Source: an uncultured Akkermansia sp.
GTDB taxonomy: Bacteria > Verrucomicrobiota > Verrucomicrobiia > Verrucomicrobiales > Akkermansiaceae
DNA: 39,332 bases
NCBI GenBank assembly: GCA_947588645.1
Contig: CANPYO010000008.1
Span: 1-39,332, forward strand
Direction: 5' to 3'
The translations under genes were made by a program, and so were the position numbers. The stretch's first letter is position 1; every line of letters begins with the position of its first letter. Positions 4,315 through 32,532 of the stretch are shown piece after piece. The notes under the pieces were generated by a model. That model worked only from the letters and a program-made list of their open reading frames with translations, ran no database searches and was not told the DNA's origin.

Positions 4315-4516
4315 GCTCGCCGAATTTTCCAAATCGTACAAAACTGCCGACGGCTGCAAAGCCGTTTGGACAAGAGCGCAGCTTTTGCCCGCAGGGCTCA
4401 CTGGCAGGGTGGTGCCAGTGAGTCATCGTACATAGGCAACCGCATTTTCTAATGCGGTTGCCCACACGTGTCCCAATAAAATTTTCTCCGGGCTCATTCA
4501 ACCCATCCCTCATGCG
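4315..4516. repeat. Composite intergenic repeat block after the HAD-FolB gene
   Basis: In order, the block contains a GCCGACGGC module (about 4338-4396) and a 10-bp-stem hairpin CTCACTGGCA/TGCCAGTGAG (about 4397-4422), which also recurs at 18490-18511. A CGTACATAG junction follows, then the left-end hairpin of the mobile element at 4435-4462, with a compensated variant stem (CAACCGCATT/AATGCGGTTG). Last comes a 54-bp repeat (4463-4516) that recurs at 13324-13377 and 33893-33945. The paired change in the stem suggests that the hairpin itself is conserved. Confidence 0.75.
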
Positions 4517-4628: not shown

Positions 4629-4722
4629 CGTCAAATTCCCGCGCCGCAGGCGCGCGAACTTCCCAAATCGTACATCGTACATCGTACATGGGCGCCGCTA
4701 GGCGCCCCGTCTGCCCGGTTCT
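4629..4722. repeat. Octamer array followed by a GGCGCC hairpin
   Basis: A GC-rich segment (CGCGCCGCAGGCGCG) leads into AAATCGTACATCGTACATCG, a tandem array of an 8-bp unit. Next comes the small hairpin GGCGCCGCTAGGCGCC. The same order (array, then a hairpin of varying sequence) is seen at 9830-9960, 18300-18345 and 34000-34045. The rest of 4517-4760 shows no gene. Confidence 0.7.
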
Positions 4723-5793: not shown

Positions 5794-5899
5794 CAAAATT
5801 CCGCTCCGCACCAGCTCCGCTAAATTCGCGTGCAAGAGCGGGAATTTTTCAAATCGTAAATCGTACATAGGAAACGCATTTTCTAATGCGTTTGCCCTG
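5788..5899. repeat. GC-rich module, octamer array and left-end hairpin
   Basis: The order is GGCTTTCAAAATTCCGCTCC and following bases, CAAATCGTAAATCGTACATAG, then the element left-end hairpin (5871-5896) finishing with GCCCTG. The GC-rich module is shared with 13477-13535, 18582-18650, 28133-28205 and 34055-34110. The rest of 5900-6011 shows no feature. Confidence 0.75.
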
Positions 5900-7218: not shown

Positions 7219-7461
7219 CAGGGCAAACGCATTAGAAAATGCGTTTGCCTATTTACGATTTACGATTTACGATGTACGATTTATTGATAACGTGCGCATT
7301 GCGCAGATTTTTTTCGAATCATTAACGTGTGCAGAGATTCCTTTAGAGCGGTCATCATGATGACCGCTTGTTGTCATGATTTTTGATACGTATAAACATG
7401 AATATCAGTCAATAAGATTGTTGCCTCCGTTGATTACCTTCTCTCAAATGCGTTTGCCCTG
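7219..7461. mobile_element. MITE-like element, copy 1
   Basis: This 243-bp element begins CAGGGCAAACGCATT and ends with its inverted complement AATGCGTTTGCCCTG. Next to the left end is a hairpin, then a run of TACGATT octamers, then a core with GTGCGCATTGCGCAG and the perfect 20-bp palindrome GCGGTCATCATGATGACCGC (7348-7367). No protein is encoded. I see no target duplication at this copy. Its right 53 bp form the 3' end of the convergent SMUG1 gene. The other copies are at 20935, 24893, 28296 and 32121. Confidence 0.85.
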
Positions 7462-8206
7462 GGGGCGGAGGAAGTTGAGCTCGGCTCAACAAGTCAAGTA
7501 TCTGTTCGCGCGGTTTATCCGGCCAGCACTTGTTGGAGATAGGATTGGCGGGACTGGGATGCAAGATGCTACCTAAGGTGAAGGTGGTTTCAGGGATGGC
7601 TGTGGCGGCGATTTGTAGCTGCTGCAGGGCATAGGCGCCCACGCCGATGAGGCAGGTGGGGCGCAACGCGCGAATGAGGCGCACCAGATGGCGCTGACAG
7701 GCTCTATCAATGCGGGTGGCTTGCTCGCGCGGAAGCTGGGTGGGAGGAATATTGGCGCCGCTTTCGCTCATCCAGATGAGCGGGCAATAGTTGGCGACAT
7801 AAGCCTGATCGAAGAAGCGCTCAGCTGTGCCGTAGAGTTGTTCGAAAAGCCCCCATAGCCGCCGTCCGCTCACTTCGGAGCGTGGGCAGGAAAAGCCTTG
7901 GATGGGACGTTTGGGATGCGTTTTTTCAGGCTGACCGACAGCGGCGGTGATGCCCATCCAGAGGGTGACAGCGGGGATTTCGCCAAAGGGCACACCGGTC
8001 TGTGCCATGCCGAAGGGACCTGGGTTCATGCCCAGGTAGAGCACCTGCTTGGGAGTTGTGGCGAAGCGGCGGATATAGGCCTCGTGTCCGGCCCATGCAT
8101 AGTTGAGTGGGTTGTAGGTGAAAGCAACGGGCGGCACAAAACGCAGGGTGTCCATTTCTGCCGAAAGCTCACGCGCGGCGGTCAAAACTTCATCAAGGCA
8201 ATCCAT
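7409..8206 (-). CDS. SMUG1-type uracil-DNA glycosylase
   Basis: This base-excision repair enzyme removes uracil and some oxidised pyrimidines from DNA. It is identified by the SMUG1 active-site motif GMNPGPFGMAQTGVPFGE (residues 59-76), by ANYCPL (138-143) and by HPSPANP (216-222). The product is 265 residues. The last 17 residues (PGQTHLREGNQRRQQSY) and the stop codon are read from the end of MITE copy 1, so the original C-terminus has been replaced. The conserved catalytic part is intact, so the protein is probably still functional. The start was chosen because a promoter ends 6 bp before this ATG. It is divergent from parA with 75 bp between them. Confidence 0.9.
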   Translation of the reverse strand: MDCLDEVLTAARELSAEMDTLRFVPPVAFTYNPLNYAWAGHEAYIRRFATTPKQVLYLGMNPGPFGMAQTGVPFGEIPAVTLWMGITAAVGQPEKTHPKRPIQGFSCPRSEVSGRRLWGLFEQLYGTAERFFDQAYVANYCPLIWMSESGANIPPTQLPREQATRIDRACQRHLVRLIRALRPTCLIGVGAYALQQLQIAATAIPETTFTLGSILHPSPANPISNKCWPDKPREQILDLLSRAQLPPPPGQTHLREGNQRRQQSY

Positions 8207-8212
8207 GCGAGC

Positions 8213-8242
8213 ATGATAGCACAAAGAAGCGGTATTGACCAA
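8213..8242 (-). promoter_or_regulatory. Promoter abutting the SMUG1 gene start
   Basis: On the minus strand this is TTGGTC, an 18-bp spacer, TATCAT and six bases, then ATG. The predicted transcript begins at the start codon. It lies back to back with the parA promoter and does not overlap it. Confidence 0.5.
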
Positions 8243-8254
8243 CAAAATATCGGC

Positions 8255-8283
8255 TTGAAAAGAGTGGGAGAATTCGGTAAAAT
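8255..8283 (+). promoter_or_regulatory. Candidate parA promoter overlapping the annotated start
   Basis: TTGAAA, a 17-bp spacer and TAAAAT are present. The last two -10 bases are the first two bases of the ATG at 8282. If used, transcription begins near 8290 and translation would begin at GTG 8291, seven bases after the -10 box, giving MKVIAIANQ. Confidence 0.45.
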
Positions 8284-9055
8284 GCCGGACGTGAAGGTAA
8301 TCGCCATAGCAAATCAGAAGGGAGGGGTTGGCAAGACCTCGACGGCAGTGAATCTCGCTGCGGCTTTGGCGGCTCGGGGCAAGGAGGTGCTGCTCATCGA
8401 TGTGGATTCGCAGGCCAATGCAACCTCCGCTCTTGGTTTTTCTGTGGCAGGGGAACAGAGTCTCTACCAAGCTCTCATCGGCAAATGCACGTTAGAGAAC
8501 CTCGTCATCTCCGCCAATCGCCGCCACCTTTCGCTCGTACCTTCGCACATGGATCTTTCGGGTGTCGAGGTGGAGCTTACGCAGGGGGGAGAGCATACCG
8601 GTTGCATGCAACGCGCATTGGCCGGGTTGCGGGAAAGCTCCGCGTTCGACTACGTGTTTTTAGATACACCGCCTTCGCTCGGCGTGCTGATGACGGCGTC
8701 GCTGTGCGCGAGTGATGAAGTGCTCACGCCGATGCAGTGCGAGTTTTTGAGCTTGGAGGGGCTCTCAAAGATTCTTTTCGTGATTGATCAGATACGCGAC
8801 AGTGGCATTCAGCCCGGCATCATCCACGAGGGCATCCTCATGACCATGTACAACAACACGAACCTGGCCAATCAGGTGATTGATCAGGTGCAGGAGAACC
8901 TGCCGGACAAGATATACGAAACCGTGATACCCCGCTCGGTACGCGTGGCAGAGGCGCCCAGTTTCGGACGTACCGTGCTGGAGCACGACCCGGAAGGAGC
9001 GGCTGCCTGGGCTTATAAAAATGCGGCGAAGGAATTTTTGCGCCGCCATCGGTGA
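8282..9055 (+). CDS. parA: ParA/Soj-type chromosome partitioning ATPase
   Basis: This is a deviant Walker-type ATPase of the ParA/MinD superfamily. It dimerises on ATP, binds DNA non-specifically and moves ParB-bound origin regions. NQKGGVGKTSTAVNLAAALA (deviant Walker A, starting near residue 12), LLIDVDSQANAT (Walker A') and YVFLDTPPSLGVL (Walker B) are present, and the 257-residue length fits Soj. No parB follows; the next gene is comF, overlapping the stop as TGATG. The ATG at 8282 has a poorly placed GGGAG 11 bp upstream. GTG 8291 is the alternative suggested by the promoter. Without a nearby parB, a role on another cargo cannot be excluded. Confidence 0.88.
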   Translation: MPDVKVIAIANQKGGVGKTSTAVNLAAALAARGKEVLLIDVDSQANATSALGFSVAGEQSLYQALIGKCTLENLVISANRRHLSLVPSHMDLSGVEVELTQGGEHTGCMQRALAGLRESSAFDYVFLDTPPSLGVLMTASLCASDEVLTPMQCEFLSLEGLSKILFVIDQIRDSGIQPGIIHEGILMTMYNNTNLANQVIDQVQENLPDKIYETVIPRSVRVAEAPSFGRTVLEHDPEGAAAWAYKNAAKEFLRRHR

Positions 9056-9799: not shown

Positions 9800-9960
9800 G
9801 TTCCCACTGCTCCGCTGCGCATTATAGATCGTACCTCGAAAATCGTACATCGTACATAGGCGCCGTCAGGCGCTCCCGCTCCCCTGCGCAATGCGCGCTC
9901 ACTTTTCAAATCGTACCTCGTACCTCGAAAATCGTACATAGGCAGACTTTGTCTGCCCCG
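9800..9960. repeat. Two octamer arrays with different hairpins between comF and xerD
   Basis: At 9830-9860 an array (ATCGTACCTCG, ATCGTACATCG) ends in CATAGGCGCCGTCAGGCGC. At 9908-9958 a second array ends in CATAGGCAGACTTTGTCTGCC, a perfect 7-bp hairpin. The conserved CGTACATAG followed by unrelated hairpins shows the modular nature of these repeats. Both flanking genes end here, converging on the block. Confidence 0.7.
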
Positions 9961-13274: not shown

Positions 13275-13295
13275 CTTTTTTTTCGTACCCCCAGT

Positions 13296-13592
13296 GCAAA
13301 CGCATTTTCTAATGCGTTTGCCCCACACGTGTCCCAATAAAATCTTCTCCAGGCTCATTCAACCCATCCCTCATGCGTTTCCCATGGATGAAGAAGGTAA
13401 GCCCGACAAGATGTCAAACCATGGACGATTCGGCATAGCGTAACAGCAGATGCCTTCCTCCTATCAACGCATCATCATTTCAAGAATTTCGCCCCGCACC
13501 TGCTCCGCTCCCCCGCGCAACGCGCGCAAATTCCTCAAATCGTACATTGTACCTCGTACATAGGCAACCGCATTTTCTAATGCGTTTGCCCC
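13296..13592. repeat. Repeat block between the mutase operon and the cytochrome bd operon
   Basis: The block starts with an element left-end hairpin (13296-13321), joined directly to the 54-bp repeat at 13324-13377, the same order as at 4435-4516. The GC-rich module CGCCCCGCACCTGCTCCGC (about 13477-13535) follows, then an octamer array and a second left-end hairpin (13563-13590). This one has a mismatch in the stem (CAACCGCATT against AATGCGTTTG). No gene is seen. Confidence 0.75.
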
Positions 13593-15409: not shown

Positions 15410-16558
15410 ATGACTTACACATTTTTTCAAGAATACTGGTGGTTTATCGTGTCCTTGTTGGCCGGCCTTTTTGTGATGCTCATGTTTGTGCAGGGCGGGC
15501 AGACGCTCGTGTACGCTCTTGGTCGTACTGAGCCGCAGCGGCGCCTGCTCCTGCTCGCCACGGGTCGCAAGTGGGAGCTCACCTTCACGACGTTGGTGAC
15601 CTTTGGCGGTGCCTTTTTTGCCTCGTTTCCGCTTTTTTATTCCACGAGTTTCGGAGGAGCGTACTGGGTGTGGATGCTCATTCTTCTGTGCTTCGTCATT
15701 CAGGCGGTGTCATACGAATTTCAGCTCAAGCAATCCAATCTGCTCGGCACGACAACCTATCGCGTTTTTCTCATGCTGAATGGGCTGCTCGGTCCCTTGC
15801 TTGTCGGCACAGCGGTGGGCACGCTCTTCTTCGGTGCAGAGTTTGTCATTGATAAGCAGGCTATCGTCTTGCCGGGCGAGCCGCCGGTCATCTCCCGCTG
15901 GGCAAATTCCTGGCACGGGTTGGAAGCGGTGTTGGATGTGCGCAATGTCCTGTTGGGGCTCGCAGTGCTTATGCTCTCTCGCTGTCTCGCACACTTGTAT
16001 TTCCTCAACCGCATTGAGGACGACGAAATTCGTGCCCGCAGTCGCAGTATGCTTCCCTGGGAAATCGGCCTGTTCCTTATCTTTTTCCTGAGCTTTGCCT
16101 GGTTTTGGCTCACGAGCGCCGGATTGGCGGTAACTCCCGTGTCGGAAGCAGGCGCAGGGGTACAGGAGGTGCCATGTCGTTATCTGCATGCGTTGCTGGA
16201 TATGCCGGCCGTGCTCGTAGCGTTGCTGGCGGGAGTGGCGTTGGTGCTGGTGGGGTTATTGACTCCGTTGGTGAAGCCGGCGAGCCGTTGCGGCATTTGG
16301 AGCGCGGGTCTTGGTACGGTGATTACAGTAGTGGCGCTGTTACTCCCTGCGGGGTGGAACGGTGGCATCTACTATCCCTCGCTCGCCAATCCTGCTTCTT
16401 CGCTCACCTTGGCCAATAGCTGCTCCAGCCCGTACACTTTGCAGGTAATGAGCGTAGTTTCCCTGCTGATTCCCTTCGTCCTCGCTTACATCATCTGGGC
16501 TTGGCACGCGCTGGAAAAGTCACCCATTCAACCCTCCGAGGTGGAGAAGTCTCATTAA
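15410..16558 (+). CDS. cydB: Cytochrome bd ubiquinol oxidase subunit II
   Basis: CydB is the second integral subunit of the bd oxidase. The 382-residue product has about nine hydrophobic helices. It begins MTYTFFQEYWWFIVSLLAGL, and GRKWELTFTTLVTFGGAFFASFP matches the conserved CydB region (typically WExNxVWLI/TxGGAxFAAFP). The start was taken at the ATG 20 bp after cydA, because the longer frame overlaps cydA out of frame. No ribosome binding site is seen. cydD/cydC assembly genes are not in the window. Confidence 0.93.
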   Translation: MTYTFFQEYWWFIVSLLAGLFVMLMFVQGGQTLVYALGRTEPQRRLLLLATGRKWELTFTTLVTFGGAFFASFPLFYSTSFGGAYWVWMLILLCFVIQAVSYEFQLKQSNLLGTTTYRVFLMLNGLLGPLLVGTAVGTLFFGAEFVIDKQAIVLPGEPPVISRWANSWHGLEAVLDVRNVLLGLAVLMLSRCLAHLYFLNRIEDDEIRARSRSMLPWEIGLFLIFFLSFAWFWLTSAGLAVTPVSEAGAGVQEVPCRYLHALLDMPAVLVALLAGVALVLVGLLTPLVKPASRCGIWSAGLGTVITVVALLLPAGWNGGIYYPSLANPASSLTLANSCSSPYTLQVMSVVSLLIPFVLAYIIWAWHALEKSPIQPSEVEKSH

Positions 16559-16580
16559 TTCCTCGATCCTTTGTGTTGAC

Positions 16581-16635
16581 GGAGCGTCAAGCTATTCCAT
16601 GGTCTGGCGTACGAGTTGCTTCCAATCATCGGGAA
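16581..16635 (-). pseudogene. Stray fragment of the CDF transporter gene
   Basis: These 55 bp match 21542-21596, inside the CDF gene at 21367-22761, at 53 of 55 positions. On the minus strand they translate as FPDDWKQLVRQTME, a stop (TAG), then LDAP; the intact gene encodes PDDWEQLVRQTMEKLDAP. The fragment sits at the 3' end of the neighbouring hypothetical gene and provides the region around its stop codon. It looks like a remnant of a duplication or recombination. Confidence 0.75.
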
Positions 16636-17159
16636 ACGTGTGGGAACAACTCGGCCAGTTCGTCTAATTCTCTCTCGTAGGCGGCGAGATCTGTAAGCTG
16701 CTGCTTATTGATGCGCATGGCGCCGAGCAAGGAGAGTGCAAGGGAGTCCCTGTGTTTTGCCACTTCGATGTACTGATGCACAATCGGGGAATCCGAAAGA
16801 GGAAAACGCACGTGAGCTCTGCGCGGCGCCGGGGCATGAGGATCCTGCAAAAACAAGATGCGTGAGGGGGACGTTCCCTTTGCGTGAGGATCTGCAAATT
16901 TCCCTTTATCGAGGCGTTGAATCTCGTAGGATTCAAACTCAAGCAGGACATCTTCCCACTGCCACACGATCCAGCCTGTCAACGGCTCTAAGCCGGCGTT
17001 TTTGATGGATTGTCGGCACATGCGCATGTAAACGGGAACAGAGCCAGGACACACCTGCTTACAGCAGTTCAACACCTGAGCCGTGACGGAACGGGGAGCT
17101 GCGACGCGGATGCTGCAGCCTCTCGGAGCAAGCCTTTTTTTGCTGTTTACTCTCTCCAT
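16626..17159 (-). CDS. Hypothetical protein, possibly truncated
   Basis: The 177-residue product begins at the ATG at 17159, which overlaps the end of the GT25 gene by 13 bp. The core has GWIVWQWEDVLLEFESYEI, a basic stretch and SRILFLQDPHAP. This order (GW-IW-E, an acidic helix, then ILFLxDP) reminds me of a widespread uncharacterised family that usually carries an EAEFHAVW segment. The conserved His is not present here. The last codons run into the stray CDF fragment, so the natural C-terminus may have been lost. Function unknown. Confidence 0.5.
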   Translation of the reverse strand: MERVNSKKRLAPRGCSIRVAAPRSVTAQVLNCCKQVCPGSVPVYMRMCRQSIKNAGLEPLTGWIVWQWEDVLLEFESYEIQRLDKGKFADPHAKGTSPSRILFLQDPHAPAPRRAHVRFPLSDSPIVHQYIEVAKHRDSLALSLLGAMRINKQQLTDLAAYERELDELAELFPHVSR

Positions 17160-17938
17160 AATTTGAGTCTCATCATGAGTCGCATTCGTAGTTTGAAACA
17201 CGAAATAATGAAAATATAATACCGGTACCTCAGATATTTCAGCAAGGAACGCCTGACAACAACCTTTTTGCCCCGTCCTCGACTGTCTGCATCTATGCAG
17301 CTACACTTATTCAGTTCGGAGAGGCCGACTGGACTGGGTGTCACGCCGATCGTGGGTATCTTGTTGCGAAGCAGTATGTCGGCAATTTGTGTATCAGACG
17401 GGCGCCAGAAGCTGTCAAGCGCATCATACACTCTCTTTGCTCCTCCGCGTGTGTACATATACGCGAGCGATCCCCACAGGATTTTTTTTGGGAATACCAC
17501 GCGAATGGGCATGTTGACTTTCCTGCCCCAACTTTTAATTGGATAAAGTTTCCCATCAATCGTGTACAGTTTTGCAACTTCCCAACCGCGTATATGTTGC
17601 GTGAGTTCTTGGATAGCGTCCAGAAAGTTCGGCATCAAAAGAGCATCGTCCTCCAGAATGACTCCATACGCTGCTCCGCTTTCCATAAAAGTCCTTAGAG
17701 CGAAACGATGACTGATGACGCATGCTACCTCGTTGCGCGACATCATGCACGGCATGTAGAGGGAACGTTTTTTTGAATCGTACCGTGCCAATTCGTCATC
17801 GGTGAGTTCTTCCCCGGATCTTGCGGAGATGGTTTCAAACTCCACTCCGAGCGATTGCGCCTGCCGCTTCATAAATTCGCGTCTTTCAACTGCCCAAGGC
17901 AAATTAATGACGTAGTACCTTACTGCTTGTTTGTCCAT
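17147..17938 (-). CDS. Glycosyltransferase family 25 protein
   Basis: GT25 enzymes transfer sugars, often galactose, onto lipopolysaccharide cores or other surface glycans. The family start motif YYVINLPWAVERREFMKRQ is at residues 8-26. The conserved ISHRFALRTFMESG and GVILEDDALL (the metal/nucleotide-sugar DxD equivalent) follow in the middle. The C-terminus is basic (RRSLLKYLRYRYY) and may sit on the membrane. The product is 263 residues from the ATG at 17938; a TTG at 18004 would add 22 residues of doubtful value. Two identical palindromes lie upstream and may regulate it. It is overlapped at its 3' end by the hypothetical gene. Confidence 0.85.
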   Translation of the reverse strand: MDKQAVRYYVINLPWAVERREFMKRQAQSLGVEFETISARSGEELTDDELARYDSKKRSLYMPCMMSRNEVACVISHRFALRTFMESGAAYGVILEDDALLMPNFLDAIQELTQHIRGWEVAKLYTIDGKLYPIKSWGRKVNMPIRVVFPKKILWGSLAYMYTRGGAKRVYDALDSFWRPSDTQIADILLRNKIPTIGVTPSPVGLSELNKCSCIDADSRGRGKKVVVRRSLLKYLRYRYYIFIISCFKLRMRLMMRLKLWRE

Positions 17939-17973
17939 ACGGTAGTATTGGCTCTCCTGTTGCTCCAGAGTAC

Positions 17974-17988
17974 CGTATTTGAAATACG
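17974..17988. promoter_or_regulatory. Operator-like palindrome near the GT25 gene
   Basis: CGTATTTGAAATACG is a perfect 7+1+7 inverted repeat, 36 bp upstream of the GT25 ATG. The same 15 bp, extended to 9+1+9, occur at 18129-18147. Two copies 157 bp apart upstream of one gene suggest a dimeric regulator, but no regulator gene is nearby. Confidence 0.45.
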
Positions 17989-18128
17989 CTGAACGTAATA
18001 TCAAATAAACAGATTATGAAAACCTTACAGAATTCACAATATAATCATTTTTCACGTATGGGCAGACCTTTACCCCCTGCGTATCCGTTGAAAGACGCGA
18101 AAATAATCTCTGAAAATTAGACTTGACA

Positions 18129-18147
18129 TACGTATTTCAAATACGTA
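18129..18147. promoter_or_regulatory. Second, longer copy of the operator-like palindrome
   Basis: TACGTATTTCAAATACGTA is a perfect 9+1+9 palindrome that directly follows a plus-strand TTGACA (18123-18128). It would lie over any promoter using that box. The surrounding 18005-18220 is AT-rich and unlike the repeat mosaics, with no gene recognised. Confidence 0.45.
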
Positions 18148-18299
18148 AACCATTGACAACCATAAAATACACAATGACGTGAAAGATGAATGAGAATACG
18201 CTTGCCCGCGGTGGCAACAAATGCTCTATGTCGGCATACGATCGCACGAGATGACGCGTTTCACTTGGGAGTCTGTTCACGTGTGTGAGCAGCTCATCT

Positions 18300-18668
18300 G
18301 CATACAAACGGAACTATACCAAATCGTAAATGAGAGGCGCCAGGCGCCACCGCCCCCGTTCCGCACTCCCGCGAGCTCTGCTCGCCGAACTCTACAAATC
18401 GTACAGAACTGCCGACGGCTCCGTTCAGAGTGCTCGCTTCAGCGGGCAGTGAGGGCGGCTGGACAGCGCGAAGGCGTTGCCCGGAAGGCTCACTGGCAGG
18501 TGGTGCCAGTGAGTCAACGTACTTCGTACATAGGCAGTGTTTAGACGCCATTGCCCGCGCCTTTCTAACCACGCTCGCGTACGGCTTTCAAAATTCCGTT
18601 CCACACCTGCCTCGCCAAATTCGCGCACAAGCGAGGGAATTTCCTAAACAGCACATCGTAAATAAATT
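18300..18668. repeat. Composite repeat block upstream of the acyltransferase terminus
   Basis: Modules in order: CAAATCGTAAATG with the hairpin GGCGCCAGGCGCC (about 18320-18345); a GC-rich segment; a diverged GCCGACGGC module (18403-18480); the hairpin CTCACTGGCA/TGCCAGTGAG (18490-18511); CGTACATAGGCAGTGTTTAGA with a degenerate hairpin; and the GC-rich module (18582-18650) ending in a CACATCGTAAATAAATT array remnant. Weak open frames here are chance readings of repeats. The remainder to 18760 shows nothing further. Confidence 0.65.
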
Positions 18669-18760
18669 GTGTTTTTTTTGACCGGATGTGGACAGATACC
18701 CGTCCTCGTTGCTCTGGGGAGGAAACACCTGTTTTGAGCGATCGCCCGTAAATCGGACTG

Positions 18761-20863
18761 TCACGGAAGCTGTGGAGCAGGTGCCGAAGATTCTTCCAGA
18801 AGGGCCGCGCGTATACTTGGCAGCAACTTTTGCACCATTATAATGGATCCATAAGTGCTCAGGTGGTTACCATCACGCATCAGATATCTTCCATCTTTCA
18901 CGCACGGAAAGCCATCTTCATCCTGTCGTAACGTGCTGAGTGGTTCTATGATCGCCTCACAGAGTCCTTCGTCGCGAAGCTGACGAAAGACTTTGAACAC
19001 TTGGTCATTGTAAGCAAGGTATGCTTCTCGCGTACAGTTCATTGTTGCTTTAGTGAGCGCTGGATCGTTGCGCCATTGAAGAACTTTATTGAACAGCAAG
19101 GCACTGCCGAATTCGGGTGTAGGCGCGATGAGAATAACTTTCTTGCCCATATCCCGCAACACGGAGAGGTATTCGCGCAAGGCTTGAGAAATGCGTCTTC
19201 TGCTTTGAAGTTCATCAGGCGTATATTTTCGATTCCGAAGACTGGAGGCGTCGCTAAGAAGAGACCAAGCGCGAGTCTTTTTATCGCCCCAGTAATACCC
19301 ATCCCAGCGGGAGATCCACCTTTGTCCAATGATGACGTGGGTGAGGTGCGGATTGGCGCGCAGCCACTCGAAAGTAGCTCGGATTGTACCCGGGTTCACA
19401 TTAAACTGACGGAGTGGAATGTCATAGAACGGAACCGTGTAGGGGGTGAAGTACACGCCGGAGAGTTTTGCCTTGCGCATCGCTTGATCCAGACCTGCGT
19501 ATAAATGTTCAGCATGGCTATCGCCCATCAGAACAAAGAAGGGAGTCTTAGATTTATCTCCGATGTGCAACAGGGAAAATGGAACGCCGTTTTTGTCAGA
19601 CGGGGAAGAGTTGTCTCCATCGGGAGATTGCGAGGGATTCCATAGTTTAGTGGTTGTCGGGTCATCGCAAGACTGCTTCTCGTTGTAGGGACGATTACTT
19701 GTGCTTCCCTCAATGTGGAGGGTAGCTTTCACCCAATTACTGAAGCCGTTACTCTTTCTTCCCTGCCGACATAGCAGTAGTGTACCGCCCCAAAGCAACA
19801 GAATGAGCCAAAATGCCGGTTTCCGGATCTCTATAAAGAACCAGAAGCACCAAGCGAGTGCAATGCTCAGCACAAAGGCCGTAAGTTCATCAAACCATCC
19901 AAAAGCCCCTAACGCCCACAGACGCAGAGAAACAATCACGGGCATGTGAACCAAATAGAGAGAGAAAGAAATTGAACCGAGCCATGTGAGAACACGATTT
20001 GAAAGGAAGCGATTGAACGAGCACAGGGGTGCGTAGCGGATCACGAGCAGCGTGCCGATGATGCACAGCAATTTGTCTATTTCATCCGGGCATCCCGGGA
20101 GTAGACCAAGCGCTGGAAGCAGGGAGAGAGCGCAGCCTGTGAGGCTGTATATAAAAGCCTGGCGGTGAGAACTGCCTATTGGAGACGCCATGCACGCGAG
20201 CCATCCTCCTGCCATGACCTCCCAGATTCTCGGAAGGGTGGAGTAGTAGGAAACCTCACTCTCCTGCATCCAAACAGGGAGTCCAAGCCCTTCGAGGATA
20301 TTGTGCGCTAAGAAACTGAAATCAAACGCAAAAGAAACAAATGCAGCCAAACCTAGTACGATACCGAGCCAAAGGCGTGGAAGACGCTGCAAAAGCGCGT
20401 TGCCCACGGCAAACAAGAGGTACACTTGGAAGAGCACGGAGAGATACCACATGGGCAGTAGGGGCATGTAGGAGGAATCGGGCGCAAAGTAATCTCCAAG
20501 CCTCTTTGTCAAAAAGAAATTGGCTCGGAAAATACATGCCCACCACCCCACATCGCAGGCCAGATCCTCCTGTCCGTTGCCAAGTAGGAAAAAACCGATG
20601 GAAATGGCAAGCAGAATAGCGACCAGCATGGGAAAAATAATGCGCCGGATACGCTTTTTCACGAAGGAAAATGTCTCAGAGAATCCCCATGAAGAGACAG
20701 ATAATCTATTTATCATAAGGAAATAACCACTTATGACCAGGAAAATATCTACTCCGAGGTACCCATGTGCCCACGTCTTTTCACCCATATGGAACAATAT
20801 GACCAGAATGATCGCCAAACCACGAAGACCGTCAATATGCGATAAGCGTTTCTTTTTCTCCAT
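18761..20863 (-). CDS. Acyltransferase 3 / SGNH O-acetyltransferase (OafA/YrhL type)
   Basis: This 700-residue membrane enzyme is of the type that O-acetylates surface polysaccharides, lipopolysaccharide or peptidoglycan. Residues 1-365 are an acyltransferase-3 domain with about ten helices. It begins IDGLRGLAIILVILFHMG (catalytic-type His at 25) and includes YLGVDIFLVISGY. A Ser/Asn/Pro-rich linker (365-440) leads to a periplasmic SGNH hydrolase-like domain, with GDSH (Ser449) and DGNHLSTYG (Asp664, His667). It is transcribed alone. Together with the GT25 gene it suggests a small surface-glycan modification locus. The start is supported by position relative to the first conserved motif. Confidence 0.92.
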   Translation of the reverse strand: MEKKKRLSHIDGLRGLAIILVILFHMGEKTWAHGYLGVDIFLVISGYFLMINRLSVSSWGFSETFSFVKKRIRRIIFPMLVAILLAISIGFFLLGNGQEDLACDVGWWACIFRANFFLTKRLGDYFAPDSSYMPLLPMWYLSVLFQVYLLFAVGNALLQRLPRLWLGIVLGLAAFVSFAFDFSFLAHNILEGLGLPVWMQESEVSYYSTLPRIWEVMAGGWLACMASPIGSSHRQAFIYSLTGCALSLLPALGLLPGCPDEIDKLLCIIGTLLVIRYAPLCSFNRFLSNRVLTWLGSISFSLYLVHMPVIVSLRLWALGAFGWFDELTAFVLSIALAWCFWFFIEIRKPAFWLILLLWGGTLLLCRQGRKSNGFSNWVKATLHIEGSTSNRPYNEKQSCDDPTTTKLWNPSQSPDGDNSSPSDKNGVPFSLLHIGDKSKTPFFVLMGDSHAEHLYAGLDQAMRKAKLSGVYFTPYTVPFYDIPLRQFNVNPGTIRATFEWLRANPHLTHVIIGQRWISRWDGYYWGDKKTRAWSLLSDASSLRNRKYTPDELQSRRRISQALREYLSVLRDMGKKVILIAPTPEFGSALLFNKVLQWRNDPALTKATMNCTREAYLAYNDQVFKVFRQLRDEGLCEAIIEPLSTLRQDEDGFPCVKDGRYLMRDGNHLSTYGSIIMVQKLLPSIRAALLEESSAPAPQLP

Positions 20864-20896
20864 CTTTTACACTGAACGTTAGAGAGAATGACGAGG

Positions 20897-20925
20897 CTTC
20901 TACCATGTTATGAAAAAAAAGTCAA
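20897..20925 (-). promoter_or_regulatory. Promoter of the acyltransferase gene
   Basis: On the minus strand this is TTGACT, a 17-bp spacer and TAGAAG, giving a leader of about 26 nt. The -35 box touches the target duplication of MITE copy 2, so that element inserted immediately upstream of this promoter. Confidence 0.5.
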
Positions 20926-20934
20926 GTCATAACG

Positions 20935-21170
20935 CAGGGCAAACGCATTAGAAAATGCGTTTGCCCATTTACGATTTACGATTTACGATTTATTGATAGC
21001 GTGCGCATTGCGCAGATTTTTTTCGAGTCATTAACGTGTGCAGAGATTCCTTTAGAGCGGTCATCATGATGACCGCTGGTTATCACAGTTTTTGATGCGT
21101 ATAAACATGGATATCAGTTAATAAGATTGTTGCCTCCGTTGATTACCTTCTCTCAAATGCGTTTGCCCTG
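20935..21170. mobile_element. MITE-like element, copy 2, with 10-bp target duplication
   Basis: This 236-bp element has ends CAGGGCAAACGCATT and AATGCGTTTGCCCTG and the same internal order as copy 1, including the 20-bp palindrome GCGGTCATCATGATGACCGC. It is flanked by AGTCATAACG on both sides (20925-20934 and 21171-21180), a perfect 10-bp direct repeat. It has no coding capacity. Confidence 0.92.
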
Positions 21171-21180
21171 AGTCATAACG

Positions 21181-21366
21181 TTACTTTCTCGGGTCAAACG
21201 CACACGTGTCCAACAAAGTTTTCTCCGAAGTAAGCCGGCAAGACGGCACAAACCATCGATGATTAGTCAAGGCAGCGAACTTGTCATGGCGTTACACCGG
21301 AGGCTTTCCCGCGCGTAACGCGCTCACTTTTCAAATCGTACATCGTAAATCGTAAATGAATTGCGT
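21181..21366. repeat. Degenerate repeat remnants downstream of the CDF gene
   Basis: CACACGTGTCCAACAAAGTT (21201-21230) is a decayed copy of the 54-bp repeat found at 4463, 13324 and 33893. The following text resembles 13390-13440. Positions 21310-21360 hold CGCGTAACGCGC and the array CAAATCGTACATCGTAAATC. No gene is seen. Confidence 0.6.
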
Positions 21367-22761
21367 TTACTCGTACACCACGAAAATGCGTGCGATACGG
21401 GGGAGGGCCGCAGTGAGTTCTTGCGTGAGACGCGTGAGCACATCGTGGCTTTGGACGATGGAGAGGGTGGGGTTTGCCGGGATACAGACGAAGCAAACGC
21501 GCTGTGAGCCACGCGTGTAGAGATGGACGGCGGAAGGAACCGGAGCGTCAAGCTTTTCCATGGTCTGGCGTACGAGTTGCTCCCAATCATCGGGAATAGG
21601 TTGCTCAAAATGCGGGAGGGTGCGCATGTTCGGCTCGAGGTGTACAAAGACAGCTACGGCCTGCAATCGACGTGCTACCTCGGCACGGAAGGCTTGCACC
21701 GGCACAGCCCATGATTCTAATGTAGCCTGTGGCGGTAGCTCCAGGTCGGAGAACACAAGTAGTCCCTGGTCGGCCTCCAAAAGGCGCAGAGAGTGCACTC
21801 CCATGCGGTGTGTGAGGGCGATTTGGCGGATAAGTTGTTCCGGAGAATCAGGCTCGGTGTCTTCTGGCTGCATGTGCACCAGCGTCTCTGCCCCGGGAAG
21901 GGAACGCTCCACGAGCGCCTCGATGGCATCCGCAATTTCATGAGCCGTGTCGATGTGTAAATCACGGGGCATGCCGACGACCATTTCGAGGTAGGTGGTA
22001 TTGCCCACAGATCGGGCTCTCAAGTGTCGTAGGGGGTACGCCGGCATCTGCTCGGCCATGAGAGAGGTGATCTGCGTGTAGAGAGCCTCATCTGTGCGAT
22101 CCATGAGGTTATTGATGGCTTGCATACCGAGTATCTTGCATATATACAAGATGATGATGGACACCACGAGTGAGGAAAAGACATCTGCACGGGTGAGCAG
22201 CCAGTGAAGTGGCGAGTCCGGCGTAACTTGGTTAGAGAGCGCAGCCCCGGTAATGCCTACCAGAACAGCCGCACTGCTCCAAATATCGCTGGAAAAGTGG
22301 GCGGCATCGGCAGCCAAGGCTGCGCTGTTCGTTTCGCGCGCGGCGCGGCGCAGCATGGCTGAGCGGTTGATATCCACGGCGAGCGAGATGATGATCACGA
22401 GAAAGGCCCAGAAAGAAATATCCACACGAAGCGCGCTCGGATCATCACTCATGAGACGGTGAACAGCTTCACGTATCACCCAGATGGCCGTGCCGAGCAG
22501 CAACAGAGTCTCCGCCAGTGCCATCAAGTTCTCCACCTTGCCGTGACCGTATGGATGATCCTCGTCGGCCGGACGAGCCGCCACCTTTACCGCAAAAAGA
22601 GTACCGAGCGCAGCGAGCAGGTCGAGCATGCTGTGCAGCGCCTCAGAGAGAATGCCCAGCGACCCGGTTGCGATGCCAACAACGAGCTTGAGCACGGTGA
22701 GCACCATGCTCCAGAGAACGGATGACCACGCTGCGCGCGACTTCTTGGCATGTGTCTCCAT
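21367..22761 (-). CDS. Cation diffusion facilitator transporter with a tripled C-terminal domain
   Basis: CDF proteins export divalent metals such as Zn, Fe, Mn or Co in exchange for protons. Six helices fill residues 10-210. The metal-site residues are in SEALHSMLD (H43, D47) and DAAHFSSD (H155, D159), with DEDHPYGHGK (H69, H73) in the first cytoplasmic loop. The usual ferredoxin-like C-terminal domain follows (about 215-300, ending ETLVHMQPED). Then come two further stretches of similar size and pattern (about 305-385, ending VFVHLEPN, and 395-464). The protein is therefore about 160 residues longer than a standard CDF. It begins 17 bp after the dnaA stop and is probably co-transcribed with dnaA. 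A fragment of this gene recurs at 16581. Confidence 0.88.
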   Translation of the reverse strand: METHAKKSRAAWSSVLWSMVLTVLKLVVGIATGSLGILSEALHSMLDLLAALGTLFAVKVAARPADEDHPYGHGKVENLMALAETLLLLGTAIWVIREAVHRLMSDDPSALRVDISFWAFLVIIISLAVDINRSAMLRRAARETNSAALAADAAHFSSDIWSSAAVLVGITGAALSNQVTPDSPLHWLLTRADVFSSLVVSIIILYICKILGMQAINNLMDRTDEALYTQITSLMAEQMPAYPLRHLRARSVGNTTYLEMVVGMPRDLHIDTAHEIADAIEALVERSLPGAETLVHMQPEDTEPDSPEQLIRQIALTHRMGVHSLRLLEADQGLLVFSDLELPPQATLESWAVPVQAFRAEVARRLQAVAVFVHLEPNMRTLPHFEQPIPDDWEQLVRQTMEKLDAPVPSAVHLYTRGSQRVCFVCIPANPTLSIVQSHDVLTRLTQELTAALPRIARIFVVYE

Positions 22762-24562: not shown

Positions 24563-24892
24563 AGCAAACGCATTAGGGTGGACGTTTGTCCATTTGCGGT
24601 TACCCCGCTCGCCGAATTCCTCAAACCGCACATTGACTCGTAGGCACCCCATTGCCCATTGCTTCGGAGTCGCCTCACGACTCTTGTCTCAAACTCGTCC
24701 CACGAGTTTTCGTCCTTTCGGGGCAAAAGCTATGCTCTTGGCCAAACTGCCTTACGCCGTCGGCAGTTTTCGCCCTGCGGGGCAGCGCCGTCGCGCTGTT
24801 CATCTTCCTCCGCGCACAGTTTCATCACATTCCTCTGCTTTTGCTCCGCTTTCCCGCGCAAAGCGCGCTTACTTCGCAAATCATAAATGGTC
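24563..24892. repeat. Composite repeat block between dnaA and MITE copy 3
   Basis: A degenerate left-end hairpin (24563-24590) is followed by CTCGTAGGCACC and TTGCTTCGGAGTCGCCTCACG (24630-24690), an inverted copy of 32420-32480. An inverted GCCGACGGC module (about 24720-24785) comes next, then CCGCGCAAAGCGCGC and CGCAAATCATAAATGG. No gene is convincing here. The three overlapping open frames all read through repeats. Confidence 0.7.
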
Positions 24893-25120
24893 CAGGGCAA
24901 ACGCATTAGGAAATGTGTTTGCCTATGTACGAGGTACGATTTGTTAATAATGTGCGCGTTGCGCAGATTTTTTCGAATCATTAATGTATGCTGAAATCCC
25001 TTTGGAGCCAACATCATGATGATCTCTTGTTGTCATGATTTTTGATGCGTATAAACAGTGATATCAGTCAATAAGAGCATTTCCTCTGTCGATTGACTTC
25101 TCTCAAATGCGTTTGCCCTG
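24893..25120. mobile_element. MITE-like element, copy 3, with target duplication
   Basis: This 228-bp element has the 15-bp terminal inverted repeats CAGGGCAAACGCATT. The flanks are ATAAATGGTC (24883-24892) and GTAAATGGTC (25121-25130), a 10-bp duplication with one mismatch. The core is diverged from copies 1 and 2, so it is probably an older insertion. Its right edge is 54 bp from the argJ start and directly upstream of the argJ promoter. Confidence 0.9.
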
Positions 25121-25138
25121 GTAAATGGTCAAACGGGC

Positions 25139-28132: not shown

Positions 28133-28295
28133 TATTTGAAACTCAAAGATTCCACTCCGCACCAGCTCCGCAAAATTCGCGCGCAACGCGCACAAACTTT
28201 GCAAATCGTAAATGAGCAGCCATCCTCTGCGGCTGCTTGAGGTCGTCGTCAGTTTTCACATAACCCGCGCCCCTGGCGCGCTATAACCCAAATCG
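28133..28295. repeat. GC-rich module and CGCGCC module upstream of MITE copy 4
   Basis: Positions 28133-28215 carry the GC-rich module (GATTCCACTCCGCACCAGC) ending in GCAAATCGTAAATG. Positions 28250-28287 (GTCAGTTTTCACATAACCCG and following bases) are the inverted copy of 456-492. Position 28286 starts the target duplication of MITE copy 4. Confidence 0.7.
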
Positions 28296-28530
28296 CAGGG
28301 CAAACGCATTTGAGAGAAGGTAATCAACGGAGACAACAATCTTATTAACTGATATCCATGTTTATACGCATCAAAAACCGTGATAACCAGCGGTCATCAT
28401 GATGACCGCTCTAAAGGAATCTCTGCACACGTTAATGACTCGAAAAAATCTGCGCAATGCGCACGCTATCAATAAATCGTACATCGTAAATCGTAAATGG
28501 GCAAACGCATTTTCTAATGCGTTTGCCCTG
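28296..28530. mobile_element. MITE-like element, copy 4, inverted, with perfect target duplication
   Basis: This 235-bp element is in the opposite orientation to copies 1-3, bounded by CAGGGCAAACGCATT and AATGCGTTTGCCCTG. It is flanked by ACCCAAATCG on both sides (28286-28295 and 28531-28540), a perfect 10-bp duplication. The target was itself an octamer-type sequence (CCCAAATCGTAAATG), so the element inserted into an existing repeat mosaic. It lies 18 bp upstream of the next gene's -35 box. Confidence 0.93.
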
Positions 28531-28548
28531 ACCCAAATCGTAAATGAA

Positions 28549-32035: not shown

Positions 32036-32120
32036 GTACGATCTCGCATCGCACTGCCCGCGCAGCGCGCGCATTATCCCCAAATCGTAAATCGTACATC
32101 GTAAATCGTACCTCGTACAT
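32036..32120. repeat. Long octamer array next to MITE copy 5
   Basis: CCGCGCAGCGCGCGCATTAT leads into five tandem ATCGTAAA/ATCGTACA-type units (about 32082-32120), the longest uninterrupted array in the window. The array ends in CATAGGC, which runs into the mobile element. Confidence 0.75.
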
Positions 32121-32532
32121 AGGCAAACGCATTTGAGAGAAGTCAATCGACAGAGAAAATGCTCTTATGGTCTGATATCAATGTCTATACGTATCAAAAA
32201 TCGTGACAACAAGTGGTCATCATCATGATGGTTCTAAAGGGATCTCAGCACACATTAATGATTCGAAAAAATCTGCGCAACGCGCACATTATTAACAAAT
32301 CGTACAAAACTGCCGACGGTGTAAGGCAGGTTGGACAAAAGCGCAGCTTTTGCCCCGCAGGGGCGAAAGCGACCGACGGCTGTAAGGTCGATTAGCCAAA
32401 AGCACAGCTTTTGCCCCGGAGGGGTGAGGAGTCGTGAGGCGACTCCGAAGCAATAGGCAATGAGGTGCCTACGAGTCATCGTACATCGTACATCGTACAT
32501 AGGCAAACGCATTTTCTAATGCGTTTGCCCTG
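32121..32532. mobile_element. MITE-like element, copy 5, inverted and interrupted by other modules
   Basis: The right-end sequence (AGGCAAACGCATTTGAGAG, 32121) and core are present in inverted orientation. Inside the octamer array, at about 32306, some 180 bp of other modules are inserted: two tandem GCCGACGGC units and the GGAGTCG/CGACTCC module. The array then resumes (ATCGTACATCGTACATCG, about 32480-32510) and the left-end hairpin finishes at GCCCTG (32532). No target duplication is seen and the first end has lost its CAG. This copy is 412 bp. Confidence 0.82.

Follow-up and report, generated by a model that had tools for sequence, protein, structure and literature searches.

The window (the whole stretch analyzed, 39,332 nt, contig 8 of a 2.49-Mb draft genome of 158 contigs whose assembly is 95.9% complete) carries a family of short, non-coding elements which, judged from their sequences, are very probably MITEs moved in trans by an ISAs1 DDE transposase that makes target cuts staggered by 10 bp. 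The enzyme that moved them is almost certainly that of an ISAs1-type transposon found in sister species. The first-pass annotation had proposed a non-autonomous mobile family with 15-bp TIRs and 10-bp target duplications; the driver element, the empty sites and the duplications described below all support that proposal.

Copies of the element in the window

We observed that copies 2, 3 and 4, described earlier with a common inverted-repeat end and their flanking 10-mers, lie where they had been placed and carry the exact sequence CAGGGCAAACGCATT at all six ends. Copy 2 (20935–21170, plus strand, 236 bp), defined from the sequence and by alignment, has exact TIRs at both ends and consists of a left-end hairpin (20935–20968) followed by TACGATT heptamers and then by a perfect palindrome of 22 bp, AGCGGTCATCATGATGACCGCT (21056–21077). 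It is flanked by the 10-bp target duplication AGTCATAACG (20925–20934 and 21171–21180). Copy 4 (28296–28530, minus strand, 235 bp), which is inverted with respect to copies 1–3 and is 98.7% identical to copy 2, lies between two copies of ACCCAAATCG (28286–28295 and 28531–28540). The flanks of copy 3 (24893–25120, plus strand, 228 bp) are ATAAATGGTC on the left (24883–24892) and GTAAATGGTC on the right (25121–25130), so that the direct repeats claimed for the three copies are exact for copies 2 and 4 and differ by one mismatch for copy 3. Similarly, the palindrome that had been called conserved is perfect in copies 1, 2 and 4, and is broken in copy 3, from which AGCGGTCATCATGATGACCGCT is absent. 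Copy 1 (7219–7461, plus strand, 243 bp) has intact ends without a target duplication, since 5 of the 10 flanking bases differ. By alignment, copies 1–4 are 83–99% identical to one another.

In addition to these copies, the window includes a composite copy of 411 bp (32122–32532, minus strand), in which one end is altered, and several lone ends, among them an exact end without a partner (5885–5899, minus strand) and a decayed end hairpin with 1–2 mismatches (13292–13325). Altogether, 19 end-like sites with up to 2 mismatches were found in the window, where 0.18 would be expected. No transposase is encoded in the window, as noted earlier, and none was found in the whole assembly either.

Copy 1 overlaps the 3′ end of the open reading frame at 7409–8470 (minus strand; overlap 7409–7461). 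The final 16–17 codons of this frame and its stop (…GQTHLREGNQRRQQSY and the stop) are MITE sequence, and the insertion appears to have replaced the C-terminus of the protein.

Abundance and distribution among relatives

The assembly contains 106 exact CAGGGCAAACGCATT ends, and none of the reversed control sequence. We found at least 40 long MITE copies of 226–245 bp; these copy numbers are lower bounds, as 40 of 467 first-look candidates were scored. The relatives of the window genome are rabbit-gut Akkermansia MAGs, and nearly all matches to the end hairpin in the named collection fall in such MAGs ('Lapin'). Clear long MITE matches were present in 10 of 58 congeners, and none was seen in the complete, larger Akkermansia genomes among these 58. 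A contig labelled Muribaculaceae (CANQRV010000084.1, L125) also carries the end hairpin. Transfer between phyla was considered for this contig and rejected: over 1.1 kb it shows 75–76% identity to Akkermansia, and the contig is therefore most likely mis-binned.

Target duplications and empty sites

To evaluate the flanks beyond the window, 130 distinct end pairs were gathered from the window genome and related genomes. A 10-bp target duplication accompanies 46 of them (31 exact and 15 with one mismatch), a count out of 130 that includes some spurious pairs because the end definition was relaxed. The chance rate, obtained by pairing flanks of different copies, is 0.13%. Other duplication lengths were not enriched, as exact duplications of 6–9 and 11–14 bp occurred in 0–2 of the 130 pairs each. 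Duplications are present at other copies, rather than lacking there, and neither of the outcomes named in the first-pass annotation as refuting it was observed. A few of the 46 represent one insertion shared by sister species (CGTGTTTTTG in three genomes, CCCATGACTC in two and TCCTAGTCCT in two), which leaves about 42 independent insertions. A strong target motif was sought in the duplications and not found; the only bias was that T is rare at positions 1–2 and A is rare at positions 9–10. We also looked among the copies without a duplication for swapped duplications, a sign of recombination, and found none.

Empty sites carrying a single copy of the 10-mer, as the first-pass annotation had predicted for related strains, were found between G000 and G046. 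G046 has an empty site where G000 carries a copy between TAGTAAACGC repeats, and G000 has one where G046 carries a copy between CAATACGGTT repeats; in both directions, the empty site retains one target copy. A paralogous empty site was also observed, as a dispersed repeat of G000 occurs with and without the element. A dispersed repeat around ACGCCCGACGGCCCCGTTTAGGGTGCTCGCG is numerous in G000 and G046 (L233, L058, L049, L248, L116 and others), and one copy of it bears a MITE. Regarding the window copies, the corresponding locus in G048 and G016 has no copy 4, although divergence of the intergenic sequence there precludes a clean footprint. Copy 2 lies within or borders an island that the compared relatives lack.

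A stretch of ~4.8 kb (window about 16542–21333), which includes, as judged by eye, a glycosyltransferase-like and an acyltransferase-like gene, has no counterpart at the corresponding locus of G042, G046 and G016. A 56-bp near-duplicate (16580–16635 and 21541–21596) lies near both edges of this stretch.

A full-length ISAs1 element with the same ends

ISAs1 elements are single-gene insertion sequences of about 1.2–1.5 kb with TIRs and duplications of 8–10 bp. The likeness to this family had been suggested only loosely, and it was borne out in sister species, where the same ends enclose a transposase gene of the ISAs1 family. In element-bearing congeners, we identified a full-length insertion sequence of 1312–1315 bp with CAGGGCAAACGCATT ends and one frame of 383–396 codons, and several PF01609 matches in these genomes fall inside elements of 1314–1315 bp with MITE-type ends. 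The 383-aa transposase scored 337 bits against NF033564 (a second one 334; cut-off 70) and was also above the cut-off for PF13808 and PF01609. This insertion sequence therefore has the family model above cut-off, the single gene, the length, the TIRs and, in the G038 copy, the 10-bp duplication of ISAs1.

Long copies are present in G042, G014 and G016, with proteins 94–100% identical, and in G038 and G035, with a protein identity of 48–49%. The frame of the G016 copy has two stops. The G042, G014 and G016 copies have no target duplication, and the perfect one was found only in the more distant G038 copy, which is intact (1312 bp, perfect TIRs, an open frame and the exact 10-bp duplication GTGACTGTAT). 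In the comparison with the G014 copy, the MITE matches one end of the insertion sequence at 22 of 22 bp on its left and the other end at 18 of 18 bp on its right; the interior of the MITE is unrelated to the interior or the gene of its partner. Of the 11 MITE-bearing genomes, 7 encode a transposase with 80% or more identity to the 383-aa protein, versus 0 of 48 others (Fisher p about 1e-6). The window genome assembly yielded no match to PF13808, PF01609 or the transposase protein, and its best match to ISAs1 interior DNA had an E value of only 0.79.

Two other end pairs were tried as the driver and rejected. One, of 1661 bp on contig 48, contains a MITE, a truncated IS30-type helix-turn-helix fragment, a gene recognized by eye that is presumably SprT-like, and a separate partial end; it was read as a MITE plus other pieces. 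The other, of 1540 bp in G055 (L153), encloses an IS5-family transposase and was read as an IS5 nested in a MITE. Additionally, G032 carries short elements (L204, 792–929, and L217, 474–891) derived from a more distant ISAs1 whose ends are the same. These are flanked by near-perfect 10-bp duplications (8/10 and 9/10, respectively), so that miniature forms of ISAs1 seem to arise separately in other lineages as well.

Proposed mechanism and alternative explanations

The MITEs hold both ends of an ISAs1-family insertion sequence without its gene. According to the proposed mechanism, a full-length element would supply the DDE transposase, which would recognize CAGGGCAAACGCATT at both MITE ends and join the MITE to target cuts staggered by 10 bp; gap repair at the new target would then give rise to the 10-bp duplication. 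The ends, the 10-bp duplications, the empty sites, the high copy number and the ISAs1 partner in sister species were all observed. We infer the joining chemistry and that no transposase but that of ISAs1 acts on the MITE in vivo, and the data are compatible with both cut-and-paste and copying movement.

A rival explanation is that these are REP/BIME-like intergenic repeats that were dispersed by recombination, by gene conversion, or by slippage at hairpins and heptamer tracts, rather than by transposition. It would suit the hairpin at the left end, the interior heptamer tracts that are also seen in other intergenic repeats, and the mosaic composites. We regard this explanation as very improbable for the family, given the exact 10-bp duplications of differing sequence at many copies, the empty sites with a single target copy and the existence of an autonomous element with the same ends. 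For intact copies, it is already refuted by the empty sites and the duplications; recombination explains the mosaics and the lone ends, not the intact copies. It is just as hard to credit that a transposase of some other family mobilized the MITEs through similar ends. Such an enzyme would fit a window genome in which no ISAs1 transposase was found, but both MITE ends, including the few bases that distinguish them, match the ISAs1 group, the duplication length agrees with ISAs1, and close ISAs1 transposases occur solely in MITE-bearing genomes.

Under mobilization by the ISAs1 transposase, the family is either immobile now or driven by an unassembled copy, since no transposase was found in the window genome. 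That it is still moving in this species, with its driver in unassembled DNA, is rather unlikely. Many copies do have perfect ends and duplications, some pairs are 98.7–99% identical, the assembly stops at the completeness given above, and in congeners the ISAs1 copies are frequently found at the edges of contigs, as is the case for multi-copy repeats that fail to assemble. Against this, unassembled repeats usually leave traces at contig edges, and the assembly shows zero ISAs1 interior (the E value of 0.79 being the best match). Because the copies are many and the driver is missing from the genome, the family is a candidate for a MITE that has outlived its transposase.

Stacking of copies against resident ends

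In an open search of 59 genomes for outward-facing ends 0–30 bp apart, the spacing was exactly 10 bp at 5 of 5 distinct sites. A looser end definition, applied to the collected loci, gave 12 sites within 60 bp, of which 8 were spaced at 10. Four loci (L106, L132, L152 and L262) each carry a newer copy that abuts another end and is bracketed by a duplication of its own. Of the 46 insertions with a target duplication, 5 abut a resident end exactly, versus 0.125% of random window positions, an enrichment that is indicative only, as the loci were chosen for elements and the random positions include genes; the exact spacing is firmer. Simple tandem duplication does not account for the stacking, since the resident end at several of these sites is an old lone end or part of a different element type. 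We give about even credence to the idea that the ISAs1 transposase steers insertions to the 10 bp touching a resident end, which would make copies stack with a shared 10-bp spacer. This stacking offers a testable lead on target choice by the ISAs1 transposase.

Decay, mosaics and other intergenic repeats

One locus is represented by a full copy in G046 (L077) and by an end remnant of ~50 bp in G000 (L241); from this match, we take the lone ends to be deletion products. A second internal type with the same ends was found at L009 and L228. In a MITE class of 327 bp and in the composite at 32122–32532, an extra intergenic cassette lies within the heptamer region. The dispersed intergenic cassette GCCGACGGC…CAGTTT…CAAAAGCGCAGCTTTTGCCC occurs in the window at 486–536, 4340–4390, 24708–24770 and 32305–32416, and it was found both alone and within the 327-bp class. 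Tandem heptamers (ATCGTAC/ATCGTAA) are present within the MITE and also in intergenic DNA (4660–4689, 9828–9960, 21333–21358, 32088–32134 and others); short matches to them are spread over the genus and extend to a few genomes from a different family in the order. The elements and their remnants account for some of the repeats that crowd the intergenic DNA of these genomes.

Comparison with known systems

In a literature search with most subscription journals outside its scope, we found no work on MITEs or ISAs1 elements in Akkermansia, and no paper combining ISAs1, MITE and target site duplication. Both the MITE family and the ISAs1 subgroup seem to be undescribed in Akkermansia, and here the family was identified together with its driver.

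REP/BIME repeats are also hairpin modules in mosaic intergenic arrangements, and the lone ends in the window resemble them. These repeats are not known to carry target duplications, whereas the window elements have duplications of 10 bp. TIMEs, the Tn3-derived inverted-repeat miniature elements (PMC4133298), are likewise miniature elements built on the ends of a larger bacterial transposon. Their ends belong to the Tn3 family, while those of the window elements are ISAs1 ends. Tn3 ends, including those of TIMEs, give 5-bp duplications, compared with 10 bp here.

The ISAs1 insertion sequences of Akkermansia congeners (NF033564, PF13808 and PF01609) have the same TIRs and 10-bp duplication as the window elements; in contrast, the latter are about one sixth as long, with an unrelated interior, and are non-coding, lacking a transposase gene, which makes them derivatives of ISAs1 ends and not insertion sequences. 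They have the features of MITEs, being under ~600 bp, multi-copy and free of a transposase gene, with TIRs common to an autonomous element, a constant 10-bp duplication and empty sites. MITEs whose ends are those of an insertion sequence are an established class, called type I (PMC3542288), and the window elements resemble these in being short, non-coding and multi-copy, with shared TIRs and a duplication of constant length. They differ in that their presumed driver is of the ISAs1 family and absent from the assembly, and in the hairpin at one end. The window elements are a well-supported new example of a known element type, not a new type.
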